A DNA stretch of 62,365 nt from Bacteroidaceae bacterium. Its GTDB lineage: Bacteria; Bacteroidota; Bacteroidia; Bacteroidales; Bacteroidaceae. Below are positions 1,692 to 58,990 of this stretch, in pieces. Position numbers and translations under genes: made by a program. The notes under the pieces are model-generated. The model was not told where the DNA came from and did no database searches. It saw nothing but the letters and a program-made list of their open reading frames with translations. The stretch spans positions 1 to 62,365 of the forward strand of contig JAFWYQ010000019.1 of assembly GCA_017517605.1 (NCBI GenBank), read 5' to 3'. Numbering within the stretch: position 1 is the stretch's first letter; each line of letters opens with the position of its first letter.

Positions 1692-1720
1692 TTGCATATC
1701 AAAAATAAGTTGTAATTTTG
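1692..1720 (+). promoter_or_regulatory. Promoter of the aromatic amino acid operon and its leader peptide
   Basis: TAATTTTG at 1713-1720 matches the -7 element TAnnTTTG, with TTG at 1692-1694 placed 18 bp upstream. Transcription would begin near 1727, about 22 nt before the leader peptide ATG at 1749, as an attenuator requires. Confidence 0.65.
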
Positions 1721-1748: not shown

Positions 1749-1841
1749 ATGAAAGCGTTACAGGCATTTTTTTACTTCTTTTTTTACTTTTACTTTAGCA
1801 ATGAAGTGAAGCGGGAGGTTGTGTATATGCCTTACAGATGA
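1749..1841 (+). CDS. Phe/Tyr leader peptide of the aromatic operon attenuator
   Basis: A 30-codon frame starts with ATG at 1749 and stops with TGA at 1839-1841. Codons 7-16 (1767-1796) read FFYFFFYFYF: seven Phe and three Tyr codons in an unbroken run. The frame lies between a good promoter and the gene for prephenate dehydratase, the committed step to Phe. By analogy with the known pheA and pheST leader peptides of enterobacteria, it should act as a sensor: scarce charged tRNA-Phe or tRNA-Tyr stalls the ribosome on this run. The peptide itself probably has no other role. The overlap of its 3' end with the antiterminator arm (1810-1828) supports coupling. Confidence 0.85.
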   Translation: MKALQAFFYFFFYFYFSNEVKREVVYMPYR

Positions 1842-1874
1842 ATAGAATTGAACAATTTGATATGACATCCCGCT
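1810..1874 (+). promoter_or_regulatory. Antiterminator hairpin of the Phe/Tyr attenuator
   Basis: agcggga at 1810-1816 pairs with tcccgct at 1868-1874. The stem can be extended through tgt/aca and tatat/atatg (1824-1828 with 1860-1864). The 3' arm is shared with the terminator stem, so the two folds exclude each other. The 5' arm begins 14 nt after the last codon of the Phe/Tyr run and would be free when a ribosome stalls there. It would be largely covered by a ribosome reaching the stop codon at 1839-1841. Confidence 0.75.
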
Positions 1875-1904
1875 TTTCCGATAAGGATTTGCGGGATTTT
1901 TATT
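1867..1904 (+). terminator. Intrinsic terminator of the Phe/Tyr attenuator
   Basis: atcccgc (1867-1873) pairs with gcgggat (1891-1897) and is followed by the U-rich tract ttttatt. It ends only 14 nt before the ATG of the dehydratase gene, so it can only serve to abort transcription before the operon. Confidence 0.8.
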
Positions 1905-1917
1905 ACGAAAAAGAAAC

Positions 1918-2760
1918 ATGAAAAAGATAGCCATACAGGGCATGATAGGGTCGTTTCACGACATTGCCGCCCACCAATACTTCGGCGAAGAGGAGATTGA
2001 ACTGATTTGTTGCAACACGTTTGAAGAGGTGTTCGAGGAAATCCGCAAGGATAGCAATGTGATTGGAATGACGGCCATAGAGAACACCATTGCAGGAAGC
2101 CTGTTGCACAACTACGAGCTGCTACGCGATAGCGGAACCACCATCGTGGGTGAACACAAACTCCGCATCAGCCATAGCCTGCTCTGTCTGCCCGGCGAGA
2201 GTTGGGATGACTTGGTGGAAGTGAACTCGCATCCCGTAGCATTGGCACAATGCCGCGAATTTCTGCAAAAACATCCACAACTGAAGATTGTGGAAACAGA
2301 CGATACCGCCGGAAGTGCCAAGAACATCAGCGAGAAACAACTGAAAGGCCATGCGGCCATCTGCTCAAAATTTGCCGCTCCCCTTTACAATATGGAAGTG
2401 TTGGAGGAAGGCATTGAGACGAACAAGCACAACTTCACCCGCTTTCTGGTTGTGGCCGATCCCTGGAAGGCTGACGAACTGCGTGAACGTTCGAAGGTGA
2501 ACAAGGCAAATATTGTATTCTCTCTGCCACACAACGAAGGAAGCCTGTCCCAAGTGCTCTCTATCTTCTCGTTCTACAAAATCAACCTGACCAAGATACA
2601 GTCACTGCCCATTATCGGACGCGAATGGGAATACCTGTTCTACGTAGATGTCATTTTCGACGATTACCTACGCTTCAGACAATCCATTGACGCCGTATCA
2701 CCCTTGACAAAAGAACTTAAAATATTAGGAGAATATGCAGAAGGAAAATCAAGCATTTAA
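1918..2760 (+). CDS. pheA: Prephenate dehydratase with ACT regulatory domain
   Basis: This enzyme converts prephenate to phenylpyruvate, the committed step to phenylalanine. The 280-residue protein is a stand-alone dehydratase with no chorismate mutase part. The catalytic domain spans about 1-185, with ENTIAGS at 55-61 and the hallmark TRF at 174-176. An ACT domain follows (about 197-270), with GSLSQVLSIF and QSLP at 228-231, where Phe-sensing family members usually have ESRP. Feedback inhibition by Phe is likely, but the Glu-to-Gln change at the ligand motif is worth noting. The gene is first in the operon behind the attenuator, and its last 26 bases overlap the next gene. Confidence 0.93.
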   Translation: MKKIAIQGMIGSFHDIAAHQYFGEEEIELICCNTFEEVFEEIRKDSNVIGMTAIENTIAGSLLHNYELLRDSGTTIVGEHKLRISHSLLCLPGESWDDLVEVNSHPVALAQCREFLQKHPQLKIVETDDTAGSAKNISEKQLKGHAAICSKFAAPLYNMEVLEEGIETNKHNFTRFLVVADPWKADELRERSKVNKANIVFSLPHNEGSLSQVLSIFSFYKINLTKIQSLPIIGREWEYLFYVDVIFDDYLRFRQSIDAVSPLTKELKILGEYAEGKSSI

Positions 2761-3922
2761 GATACAACCCGCCGAACGCCTGCAAAGTGTAAGCGAATAC
2801 TACTTCAGCCGTAAACTGAAAGAGGTGGCCCAAATGAATGCCGAAGGCAAAGATGTAATCAGTTTGGGAATCGGAAGCCCCGACATGCCTCCTTCTGAGG
2901 AGACCATCAATGTACTTTGCGAACAAGCCAAACGTGCCGATGTACACGGATACCAGCCAACTGTGGGTATCCCCGAACTTCGCAAGGCAATGGCTGATTG
3001 GTACAAACGATGGTACAATGTAGAGTTGGATGCTGCTACTGAAATACAACCCCTCATTGGTTCGAAGGAAGGTATCCTGCATGTGACGTTAGCTTTCGTC
3101 AACCCGGGCGACCAAGTGTTGGTACCCAACCCCGGCTATCCCACCTACACCTCTTTGAACAAGATACTGGGAAGCGAAATAGTAAACTACAACCTTAGGG
3201 AAGACAAGGGATGGCAACCCGACTTTGAAGAACTGGAGAATATGGACTTGAGCCGCGTGAAAATAATGTGGACCAACTATCCCAACATGCCGACAGGAGC
3301 CAATGCAACGATGGAATTGTATGAAAAGCTGGTGGCCTTTGCCCGCCGACACAACATTGTCATCGTAAACGACAATCCATATAGCCTCATTCTGAACAAG
3401 AAGCCATTGAGTATACTGAATGTCCCTGGCGCCAAAGAGTGTTGCATAGAATTCAACAGCATGAGCAAAAGCCACAATATGCCCGGATGGCGTGTAGGCT
3501 TGTTGGCCACCAATGCCCAATTTGTACAATGGATTCTGAAGATAAAGAGCAATATCGACTCCGGCACATTCCGCCCCATGCAACTGGCAGCAGCTCAAGC
3601 CTATAGCAACAGCACTGCATGGCACGAAGAGGCAAACATCAACGTATATAGCCGACGCCGACAATTGGCAGAGGAAATCATGCGCACCTTAGGATGTACT
3701 TTCGACACTAATCAAGTAGGCATGTTCTTATGGGGACGCATCCCCGACTCGTACAACGATGTAGAGGAACTGACCGAACGAGTATTGCACGAAGCACGTG
3801 TATTCATCACTCCCGGATTCATCTTTGGAAGCAACGGTAAACGCTACATCCGCATTTCGCTCTGCGCCAAAGAAGAAAAGCTGGCAGAAGCGTTGAAGAG
3901 AATTAGAGAATTAGAGAATTAA
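2735..3922 (+). CDS. Class I/II PLP-dependent aminotransferase of the aromatic operon
   Basis: This 395-residue fold-type I aminotransferase has the PLP-binding Lys245 in SMSKS, the ring-stacking and cofactor segment NYPNMPTG (181-188) and Asp213 in VNDNPYS. Its position between the dehydratase and DAHP synthase genes argues that it transaminates phenylpyruvate and/or 4-hydroxyphenylpyruvate as the last step to Phe and Tyr. Automated annotation may name such proteins LL-diaminopimelate or aspartate aminotransferase, because the subfamily is broad. The start codon lies inside the preceding gene (26-base overlap), which suggests translational coupling. Confidence 0.88.
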   Translation: MQKENQAFKIQPAERLQSVSEYYFSRKLKEVAQMNAEGKDVISLGIGSPDMPPSEETINVLCEQAKRADVHGYQPTVGIPELRKAMADWYKRWYNVELDAATEIQPLIGSKEGILHVTLAFVNPGDQVLVPNPGYPTYTSLNKILGSEIVNYNLREDKGWQPDFEELENMDLSRVKIMWTNYPNMPTGANATMELYEKLVAFARRHNIVIVNDNPYSLILNKKPLSILNVPGAKECCIEFNSMSKSHNMPGWRVGLLATNAQFVQWILKIKSNIDSGTFRPMQLAAAQAYSNSTAWHEEANINVYSRRRQLAEEIMRTLGCTFDTNQVGMFLWGRIPDSYNDVEELTERVLHEARVFITPGFIFGSNGKRYIRISLCAKEEKLAEALKRIRELEN

Positions 3923-3949: not shown

Positions 3950-5017
3950 ATGGAGTTAGAATTAAAACCCTTAGCATTACCCGGTGTTCCAATGGAACGA
4001 CCGATAGTTATAGCAGGCCCCTGTAGTGCCGAAACAGAGGAACAAGTAATAAACACCGCACGCTCATTAGCCGACAGAGGCACTAAAATATTCCGCGCAG
4101 GTATATGGAAACCACGTACCAAACCCGGAGGTTTCGAAGGTATTGGCGTAGATGGTCTCCCTTGGATGAAACAGGTAAAAGAAGAGACCGGTATGCTGGT
4201 AGCCACAGAAGTGGCAACCGCCAAACATGTATACGAATGCTTGAAAGCCGGCATCGACATCCTATGGATTGGAGCACGCACAACCGCCAACCCTTTTGCC
4301 GTACAGGAGATTGCAGATGCGTTGAAGGGAGTTGACATTCCTGTGTTGATAAAAAATCCCGTGAATCCCGATTTGGAATTGTGGATTGGAGCATTAGAAC
4401 GCATCAATGGTGCCGGACTTAAACGATTGGCCGCCATCCATCGCGGATTTTCATCCTACGACAAGAAAATCTATCGCAACTTGCCACAATGGCACATCCC
4501 CATTGAATTGCGCCGACGTATACCTGAATTACCCATCTTCTGCGACCCCAGCCATATTGGTGGGAAACGCGAATTGGTAGCACCGCTTTGCCAACAAGCT
4601 ATGGATTTAGGGTTTGACGGACTTATTATTGAAAGCCATTGCAATCCCGATCAGGCTTGGAGCGATGCTTCGCAACAGGTAACACCTGATGTACTGAACT
4701 ATATACTCGACTTGCTGGTTATCCGCGAAGGAAAGCAAAGTACTGAGAATTTGAGCGAGCTACGTCATCAGATTGACGAATGCGATAACCAAATCATTGA
4801 AGTGCTTGCCAAACGTATGCGGGTGTGTCGCGAAATAGGTACATTCAAGAAAGAACACGATATGACCATTCTACAAACCGTACGCTACAACGAGATACTT
4901 GACAAACGAGGAGCACAAGGTGCCCTTTGCGGTATGGGCTCTGAATTCATAAAAAAAGTGTTCGAGGCAATCCATGAGGAAAGTGTACGCCAACAGATGG
5001 AAATAATAAACAAGTAA
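3950..5017 (+). CDS. Bifunctional 3-deoxy-7-phosphoheptulonate synthase / chorismate mutase
   Basis: The 355-residue fusion combines the first step of the shikimate pathway with the branch to prephenate. Residues 1-260 are a class I-beta (KDO8PS-like) DAHP synthase: IAGPCSAET at 21-29, RAGIWKPRTKP at 49-59, and metal and substrate residues in CDPSHIGG (198-205) and ESHCNPD. Residues about 266-350 form an AroQ-type chorismate mutase helix bundle, LRHQIDECDNQIIEVLAKR at 271-289. Fusing the two allows feedback by prephenate, as known for homologues. It is the third gene of the operon, 27 bp after the aminotransferase. A palindromic element follows it. Confidence 0.93.
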   Translation: MELELKPLALPGVPMERPIVIAGPCSAETEEQVINTARSLADRGTKIFRAGIWKPRTKPGGFEGIGVDGLPWMKQVKEETGMLVATEVATAKHVYECLKAGIDILWIGARTTANPFAVQEIADALKGVDIPVLIKNPVNPDLELWIGALERINGAGLKRLAAIHRGFSSYDKKIYRNLPQWHIPIELRRRIPELPIFCDPSHIGGKRELVAPLCQQAMDLGFDGLIIESHCNPDQAWSDASQQVTPDVLNYILDLLVIREGKQSTENLSELRHQIDECDNQIIEVLAKRMRVCREIGTFKKEHDMTILQTVRYNEILDKRGAQGALCGMGSEFIKKVFEAIHEESVRQQMEIINK

Positions 5018-5105: not shown

Positions 5106-5879
5106 ATGAAAATACTTATTTTAGGAGCAGGCAAGATGGGTTCTTTCTTTACGGACGTACTCAGTTTTCAACACGAAACGGCGGTGTATGATGTCGATCC
5201 ACAACGATTGCGTTTCGTATACCACACTTACCGCTTCACTACATTGGAAGAGATAAAGGAATTCAAACCCGAACTGGTCATCAATGCCGCTACGGTGAAA
5301 TATACCCAAGAGGCATTCCGACAAGTAATGCCTGTATTACCCAAAGAATGTATTTTAAGTGATATTGCTTCTGTAAAGACAGGACTGAAAGAATTCTATG
5401 AGTCGACCGGCTTCCGCTATGTTTCGACTCACCCGATGTTTGGTCCCACATTCGCCAACTTAGACAATCTGAGCCGCGAGAACGCCATCATCATCAACGA
5501 AGGGGACTATATGGGTCGTATCTTCTTCAAGGATTTGTACAGTTCACTGAAACTGAACATCTTTGAATACACGTTCGACGAACACGACGAGACGGTGGCT
5601 TACTCTTTGTCCATTCCGTTTGTTTCAACGTTTGTATTCACGGCCGTAATGAAACACCAAGATGCACCGGGTACGACATTCAAGCGCCACATGGACATTG
5701 CTCGTGGGCTTTTGAACGAAGATGACTATCTGTTGCAAGAAATCCTGTTCAACCCCCGTACACCCGGGCAAGTAGAAGGTATCCGACGCGAATTGAAAGA
5801 ATTGCTGGAAATCATTTCGAACAAAGATGCAGAAGGAATGAAAAGGTATTTGACCAAAATCCGAGAGAAAATCAAATAA
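5106..5879 (+). CDS. tyrA: Prephenate dehydrogenase
   Basis: This enzyme oxidises and decarboxylates prephenate to 4-hydroxyphenylpyruvate, the committed step to tyrosine. The 257-residue protein opens with a Rossmann NAD(P) loop, GAGKMG at 7-12. The family's substrate-site motif THPMFGP lies at about 111-117. No ACT domain is present, so feedback by Tyr at the protein level is not evident; control may come from the operon attenuator. The gene is last of the aromatic set, separated from the DAHP synthase gene by the family A palindrome. Confidence 0.9.
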   Translation: MKILILGAGKMGSFFTDVLSFQHETAVYDVDPQRLRFVYHTYRFTTLEEIKEFKPELVINAATVKYTQEAFRQVMPVLPKECILSDIASVKTGLKEFYESTGFRYVSTHPMFGPTFANLDNLSRENAIIINEGDYMGRIFFKDLYSSLKLNIFEYTFDEHDETVAYSLSIPFVSTFVFTAVMKHQDAPGTTFKRHMDIARGLLNEDDYLLQEILFNPRTPGQVEGIRRELKELLEIISNKDAEGMKRYLTKIREKIK

Positions 5880-58912: not shown

Positions 58913-58990
58913 CGGGATGTAGCTCAGTCCGGTTAGAGTACGCGTCTGGGGGGCGTGTGGTCGCTGGTTCGAATCCAGTCATCCCGACCA
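58913..58990 (+). tRNA. tRNA-Pro, anticodon GGG
   Basis: The acceptor stem CGGGATG pairs with CATCCCG, followed by discriminator A and an encoded CCA. The anticodon loop CTGGGGG places GGG at positions 34-36, reading CCC/CCU. The T loop GTTCGAATC is normal. The 78-base length including CCA fits tRNA-Pro. The gene is next to an integrase, so its 3' end is probably the attachment site. Confidence 0.93.
58960..58990 (+). other. Probable attachment site (att core) in the tRNA-Pro 3' end
   Basis: Tyrosine integrases commonly recombine into the T arm and 3' end of a tRNA gene, and the integrase gene begins 137 bp downstream, pointing away. The tRNA is intact, as expected when the element restores its 3' part. 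The matching repeat at the far end of the element would lie beyond this window. Confidence 0.5.

Follow-up and report, generated by a model that had tools for sequence, protein, structure and literature searches.

A candidate two-amino-acid attenuator with interleaved Phe and Tyr codons upstream of aromatic operons in Bacteroidia

INTRODUCTION

Why should a short open reading frame with an unbroken run of Phe and Tyr codons stand just before an operon for the synthesis of these same two amino acids? The question is raised by a stretch of 62,365 nucleotides of Bacteroidaceae DNA (genome G000), the whole of which we call the window. Control of aromatic amino acid synthesis in this dominant gut phylum is little described among the literature matches listed. 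In Escherichia coli and Salmonella, the pheA leader (pheL) encodes a Phe-rich peptide, after which an antiterminator and a terminator that exclude each other precede pheA; E. coli pheA and trp are the textbook cases of a four-segment layout that includes a protector. The thr (Thr and Ile) and ilvGMEDA (Ile, Val and Leu) leaders show that one leader can read several products of one operon. Within the Bacteroidetes, the Bacteroid-trp motif is linked to trp genes, and earlier predictions of a Phe/Tyr leader may stand in a comparative survey by Lopatovskaya et al. (2010), which is cited in PMC4833913. Bacteroid-trp (RF01692) was reported as a candidate cis-regulatory motif of Bacteroidetes together with a pheA motif of Actinobacteria (PMC2864571), the pheA operon has been named among attenuated operons (PMC1183508), and long 5′ UTRs of Bacteroides thetaiotaomicron hold short frames reminiscent of leader peptides (PMC7366714).

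RESULTS AND DISCUSSION

A Phe/Tyr leader frame precedes an operon for Phe and Tyr synthesis

The leader and the genes that follow it in the window are these.

1713..1720, + strand: putative promoter −7 element TAATTTTG of the Bacteroidota TAnnTTTG type, by motif fit
1749..1841, + strand: leader peptide open reading frame of 30 codons, reading MKALQAFFYFFFYFYFSNEVKREVVYMPYR, kept in relatives
1767..1796, + strand: control region of ten consecutive Phe/Tyr codons, read from the sequence
1918..2760, + strand: pheA, prephenate dehydratase (PF00800), stop included
2735..3922, + strand: class I/II aminotransferase (PF00155), stop included
3950..5017, + strand: DAHP synthase (DAHPS)-chorismate mutase fusion (PF00793 and PF01817), stop included
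5106..5879, + strand: tyrA, divergent prephenate dehydrogenase (PF02153), stop included

The operon 3′ of the leader, with pheA, the aminotransferase, the DAHPS-chorismate mutase fusion and tyrA, serves Phe and Tyr synthesis. A preliminary description of this DNA had claimed a 30-codon leader with ten consecutive Phe/Tyr codons at 1767-1796, which can be read directly from the sequence, and a promoter, for which the element at 1713-1720 is a candidate. We take TAnnTTTG to be the Bacteroidota −7 consensus, and it is on this basis that we call TAATTTTG a promoter element. An element of this type lies 12-60 nt 5′ of the leader ATG in 120/152 leaders, as against 3% of mononucleotide shuffles, while a sigma-70 promoter scan gave no match on the + strand. 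A transcription start 3′ of 1749 would speak against the leader; the promoter-like element sits 5′ of it, and the start may be expected a few nucleotides 3′ of TAATTTTG. The scored ten-codon run has seven Phe and three Tyr codons, so that Phe dominates, and Trp codons are absent from the window leader, though DAHPS also serves Trp.

The PheA of the window is nearest to those of Phocaeicola and of Bacteroidaceae from goat and buffalo gut metagenomes. Its TyrA (5106-5879) is very divergent, reaching 35 bits to PF02153 and passing the cut-off of none of the 12 NCBIfam models listed, compared with 98-136 bits for other Bacteroidia TyrA proteins from several genomes (L227 and L297-L305 compared).

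The leader is followed by mutually exclusive antiterminator and terminator structures

Between the codon run and pheA we predict three further elements.

1808..1824, + strand: antiterminator 5′ arm (core 1808-1816, extension 1818-1824), from fold, register and covariation
1860..1876, + strand: antiterminator 3′ arm (extension 1860-1866, core 1868-1876), from fold, register and covariation
1867..1904, + strand: intrinsic terminator with stem 1867-1873/1891-1897, an inner UCC/GGA stem and a U-run, from fold and covariation

The antiterminator core forms nine pairs (1808-1816 with 1868-1876), and the extension (1818-1824 with 1860-1866) is weaker. Because positions 1868-1873 are common to the antiterminator and the terminator, the two structures are mutually exclusive; the terminator ends 13 nt before pheA. 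Both had been anticipated, the terminator at 1867-1904 as found here and the antiterminator at 1810-1828/1860-1874, of which the pairing stands and the ends, close to correct, are refined to those given above. For the terminator segment (1855-1910) the predicted fold has −18.4 kcal/mol (z −4.2, 0/200 shuffles as good), and the antiterminator segment (1799-1880) gives z −2.4 (5/200 as good). Over the whole of 1799-1910 the fold reaches z −1.3 only (17/200 shuffles as good), with the antiterminator favoured. A simple terminator scan with a loop limit of 8 returned no + strand terminator.

The leader is widespread in Bacteroidia and seems to go with DAHPS

Conservation of the leader frame upstream of pheA in relatives had been proposed as a check, and both the frame and covarying stems are kept across Bacteroidia. 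We scored the best ATG frame at 153 pheA loci, each with at least 300 nt upstream. Frames with at least six Phe/Tyr in ten codons were found at 134/153 loci (duplicates included), compared with 0.8% of dinucleotide shuffles and 4/153 on the opposite strand. Beyond the class Bacteroidia, none of 20 pheA loci chosen from the same phylum carries a frame that scores 6 or more; a 46-aa frame at one of these (L328) scores 5, has no Phe/Tyr run and looks like chance.

Leaders were then counted by operon type, as ATG frames with at least five Phe, Tyr or Trp in ten codons within 450 nt upstream. By this rule 134/139 pheA...DAHPS operons examined in the class have a leader (132/139 at a score of at least 6) and five do not; after removal of near-duplicates the count is 130/135. 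All 30 best-matching loci, window included, carry one, as do 13/13 pheA operons cut by a contig end, 3/4 single pheA genes at a contig end, 8/9 aminotransferase- or tyrA-first operons with DAHPS, and 7/11 lone pheA genes, these last across four families. No leader was found at any of nine operons in which pheA is joined by an aminotransferase or tyrA without DAHPS (L152, L171, L172, L176, L177, L185 and L279-L281), nor at six of eight lone DAHPS genes. The weak frames at the other two lone DAHPS genes (L271, L272) are probably chance; they are included in the 132 DAHPS-type leaders considered below and left out of the 130 multi-gene ones. Ten further clusters, whose upstream sequence was not long enough or whose first gene was a different one, are counted as misses. 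At L143, L175 and L180 leaders are visible, yet the operon was taken to begin with a frame upstream, so that these loci score as misses by operon type and are also absent from the structure and codon-content counts. The leaderless operons (5/139 pheA...DAHPS operons, 4/11 lone pheA and 9/9 without DAHPS) indicate that the Phe branch is not always attenuated, and the 0/9 result suggests that the leader goes with DAHPS, the shared first step.

We also searched 61 genomes blindly with an arm pattern (AAAANCCCGC...GCGGG...CCCGCT), strict enough to miss the attenuator of the window itself along with most of the others known. All six matches are aromatic leaders: pheA or tyrA follows in five, and the sixth, which carries MNTFFGTYSYFYFYFTKK, stands at a contig end; the reversed control pattern gave four matches, in two other genomes.

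The two structures are conserved and covary

The structures could be assessed in 144 of 153 non-redundant leaders, nine being too short. A strict terminator is present in 119/144, compared with 0.35% of shuffles, and an antiterminator overlapping the terminator 5′ arm in 106 of these 119, compared with 13.1% when the upstream part alone is shuffled. The 25 leaders without a strict terminator were all left as misses, although seven of them (L046, L056, L057, L077, L080, L106 and L194) are cut by a mis-called gene start and in many of the remainder a hairpin can be seen by eye, with a U-run that is shorter or interrupted. The distance from the last aromatic codon to the antiterminator 5′ arm is tightly held (median 11 nt, interquartile range 10-12, 5-95% range 8-14), so that the arm begins about one ribosome's reach past the run.

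The 5′ arm reads GCGGG in 70 leaders and takes other forms in 36 (ACGGGA, GCAGGA, CCGGGA, GAGGCTT and GACTTTG among them). For 34 leaders of the latter kind, which were selected for having an antiterminator, the arms pair better with their own partners than with swapped ones (20.4 vs 13.8, p 4e-7). Core triplets such as GCGGGA/TCCCGC/GCGGGA, ACGGGA/TCCCGT/ACGGGA and GCAGGA/TCCTGC/G(C,T)GGGA reflect a constraint shared by the three segments. In a covariation alignment of 66 sequences (A3), 76.6% of antiterminator cells are paired (39-52% when slid) and 98.3% of terminator cells (29-48% when slid), and the antiterminator shows two-sided changes in 10/16 pairs. The covariation score is reached by 0/500 shuffles for either structure. 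The number of pair types is not above shuffles (172/500 as high for the antiterminator and 91/500 for the terminator), nor is the two-sided pair number of the terminator (91/500). In relatives, pairing of the outer antiterminator extension is often missing.

Conservation lies in the arms and the Phe/Tyr codons, with a linker that varies in length and sequence. This leaves little room for a conserved aptamer and bears on the possibility that the RNA itself is the sensor, as a riboswitch, T-box or protein-bound leader, with the frame incidental. A conserved, structured 5′ region with a terminator before a biosynthetic operon is what such a sensor would look like; however, no riboswitch, T-box or other leader family matched the window or 16 leader loci at Rfam cut-offs, and we regard direct sensing as scarcely credible. 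That search, with Rfam 15 at curated cut-offs, found no family matching the leader, RF01692 included; its sole matches lie away from the leaders, namely FopS and a tRNA in the window, and Acido-Lenti-1 in L265. On 1650-2000, all Rfam matches at E ≤5 are at chance level, among them Trp_leader (E 3.6, 14.2 bits against a cut-off of 41).

Selection acts on the codon run, and the rest of the peptide changes freely

In 131 close leader pairs, which are not independent, changes within the run number 125 synonymous, 10 between Phe and Tyr, and none of any other kind. Elsewhere in the same leaders there are 179 synonymous and 412 non-synonymous changes. The peptide is aromatic and hydrophobic, and leader peptides with trans functions have been reported, such as peTrpL (PMC7298713); the frame might accordingly encode a small hydrophobic or membrane peptide acting in trans, with the hairpins a separate terminator or processing signal. 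The free change of the protein outside the run argues against this, as do the tight spacing to the antiterminator, the stop codon that may lie before, inside or after the arm, and a composition that follows operon content (below), and we consider a trans-acting peptide very improbable. The commonest run end is YFYF (74/132 leaders), in which case the final two positions ahead of the arm hold one Tyr and one Phe codon. As to codon choice, leader Phe codons are biased to TTT (0.73 vs 0.445 at the start of the first gene, non-redundant set), and leader Tyr codons are unbiased (TAT 0.449 vs 0.465).

Leader codon content tracks operon products

Where the operon is split, the genes themselves provide a natural experiment, in which leader codon composition follows pathway content. 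We compared the positions of pheA and DAHPS, the latter among the matches listed, in 294 genomes of the order. The seven lone-pheA leaders are Phe-only or nearly so, and the leaders of the separate operons in these and other split genomes are mixed.

Lone pheA leader, G054: MTRFFTHFFFFFTQQ
Lone pheA leader, G503 and G697: FRFFFFFAFFF
Lone pheA leader, G513 and G702: run of six Phe
Lone pheA leader, G736: RFFFYF, the weakest, score 5
Lone pheA leader, G569: YFDFVFGFLFCF
Partner operon leader, G054 (tyrA-DAHPS): FGYYAFYYYFFY
Partner operon leader, G503, G609 and G697 (aminotransferase-DAHPS-tyrA): FAYFYYYFYF
Partner operon leader, G577: FVYSYYFYF
Partner operon leader, G736: YTYSYFFYWFY
Partner operon leader, G569: FEFYYGFYYY
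Leader upstream of tyrA, G513: TYYAWSFFFFYF; the genes after tyrA lie outside the fetched locus

In five of the seven genomes with a lone-pheA leader (G054, G503, G697, G736 and G569), the DAHPS operon thus stands apart and has a mixed Tyr/Phe(/Trp) leader of its own; G702 has no partner operon among the matches listed, and the lone pheA genes of G609 and G577 and those at L104 and L163 have no leader. Tyr counts in the scored window of the seven lone-pheA leaders are 0, 0, 0, 1, 1, 0 and 0. Among multi-gene DAHPS operons with a leader, both Phe and Tyr occur in 130/130, and across the 132 DAHPS-type leaders Tyr is never absent and has a median share of 0.5. The difference in Tyr content between the two groups is marked (Mann-Whitney p 4e-6, in a test that ignores phylogeny). 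On a PheA tree of 105 proteins, a thinned set with long branches flagged (L160 with L161 among them), the low-Tyr label requires five changes, at least four of them forced by well supported branches; the label covers eight rows, the seven lone-pheA leaders and L161, a pheA-DAHPS operon with one Tyr. G054 and the G503/G697 pair are nested in largely mixed clades. Trp occurs in the scored window of 8/25 leaders of operons with further shikimate genes vs 7/107 others (Fisher p 0.0015, uncorrected and ignoring phylogeny). The pattern is blurred by L161 and by L265 and L267 (lone pheA, one Tyr each; L265 scores 5). A search of 20 chosen genomes for a lone tyrA preceded by a Tyr-only leader found none. 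Taken together, these comparisons suggest that leader codon content tracks operon products. The earlier proposal of a single sensor for Phe and Tyr is strengthened by the split operons, in which lone pheA is nearly Phe-only and DAHPS/tyrA mixed.

The attenuator could instead be in effect a Phe sensor, its Tyr codons tolerated either as near-equivalents (TWY) or as keeping the run easily slowed. The window run, with its excess of Phe, would suit this, as would Phe-Tyr exchange being the sole amino acid change within runs. However, Tyr makes up a median half of the run in DAHPS-type leaders and is absent or nearly absent before lone pheA, and the partner DAHPS operons are Tyr-rich in five of the same genomes. 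If simply tolerated, Tyr should not sort by operon content, and we judge a Phe-only sensor quite unlikely. Judged by this comparative record, the attenuator is real, widely conserved and functional-looking, and the comparative case for two-amino-acid sensing is unusually clean.

Two arrangements were met beside these. G676, for which no pheA is among the matches listed, has tandem attenuators before aminotransferase-tyrA-DAHPS-aroC (L301, reverse strand, offsets 2 and 128): the leader MQSIHTYYWSFYYFNTK (TYYWSFYYF) is followed by MSKDINNHVAYYYWYYYGNQTG (YYYWYYY; Tyr/Trp, no Phe). G640, G720 and G545 have pheA-aminotransferase without a leader (L279-L281) and a separate tyrA-DAHPS (L297-L299) with a Phe/Tyr/Trp leader.

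A model for two-input attenuation

We propose, as highly likely on the comparative evidence, that the element is a two-input (Phe/Tyr) ribosome-mediated transcription attenuator. A shortage of charged tRNA-Phe or tRNA-Tyr would stall the leading ribosome in the Phe/Tyr run; the antiterminator 5′ arm would then stay available for pairing, and RNA polymerase would read into the operon. When both amino acids are plentiful, the ribosome would move onto or over the 5′ arm, to a stop before, inside or after it; the antiterminator 3′ arm would be left to the terminator, and transcription would end near 1900. With Phe and Tyr codons in alternation, the ribosome should stall at nearly the same place whichever of the two is lacking, as in an OR gate. 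The codons would be set by the products: nearly Phe only for lone pheA, Phe and Tyr for DAHPS operons, with Trp added in some that have further shikimate genes.

We searched for a protector helix and found that the upstream complement to the antiterminator 5′ arm is no better than in shuffled sequences (10.7 vs 10.9, n=106). With no stretch that sequesters the 5′ arm beyond chance, the element looks like a three-segment design, and from such a design it follows that untranslated RNA should read through by default, in contrast to the enterobacterial pheA leader with its four segments. A protector hairpin may have been missed, in which case the attenuator would still be two-input and would have four segments, as in the textbook E. 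coli leaders; we think this variant, which overlaps the three-segment explanation, unlikely given the lack of excess complementarity. The position of the leader stop codon relative to the arm (106 leaders) raises a further consideration for the three-segment attenuator: in 69, window included, it lies beyond the arm, while in 31 it precedes the arm and in six it falls within it. In the 37 leaders of the last two groups, a ribosome that has passed the run would plainly cover the arm. Where the stop lies beyond, a ribosome at the stop may re-expose the arm core, so that the switch must be kinetic, and this kinetic decision is the weakest point of the model.

In its fuller form, the model describes a re-writable multi-input OR gate used across Bacteroidia, with interleaved codons, a codon set that follows gene content, three segments and a default ON state, and we regard this as probable. 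The codon set would be rewritten in evolution whenever operon gene content changes, and tandem gates would occur within one genome. If true, one RNA element would explain the control of aromatic synthesis across much of the class Bacteroidia, and leader codons could be read as a prediction of operon products.

Relation to known leaders

Like enterobacterial pheL, the element combines an aromatic-codon leader with an antiterminator/terminator switch before pheA; unlike pheL, it interleaves Phe and Tyr codons, lacks a protector segment in our searches, and stands before an operon that also contains the DAHPS-chorismate mutase fusion and tyrA. It differs from the thr and ilvGMEDA leaders in its Phe/Tyr(/Trp) set, in its phylum, and in that its codon content differs where the operon is split. 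The Phe/Tyr leader would thus be of a known mechanism type, in a two-amino-acid and apparently three-segment form. The preliminary description knew of no described Phe/Tyr leader peptide in Bacteroidetes, and none in Bacteroidota was found, by title or abstract opening, among the literature matches listed; but a 2021 study of Flavobacterium psychrophilum had already flagged strong clues for leader-peptide attenuation upstream of amino acid operons, with conserved structured elements, without Rfam hits, upstream of pheA and hisG (PMC9723704). Its pheA element is very probably the same system. That report is not known to give codon content, Tyr sensing or a distribution beyond Flavobacteriaceae.

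Other RNA elements

At 30 hisG loci (L340-L369), a frame with at least four His in ten codons is present in 24/30, and terminators follow the His-rich leaders; of these frames, the ones at L356, L359 and L363 are probably chance, since they are misplaced or read from the wrong strand. The hisG locus of the window genome (L358) has the His-rich leader MTLTLTHRHHHLPIE. Together with the aromatic leaders, these his leaders suggest that attenuation by leader peptides is common in Bacteroidales. Elsewhere in the window lie the FopS small RNA of Bacteroidetes (RF04319; 34962-35031, − strand, 81.7 bits) and a tRNA-Pro (ggg; 58913-58990, + strand).
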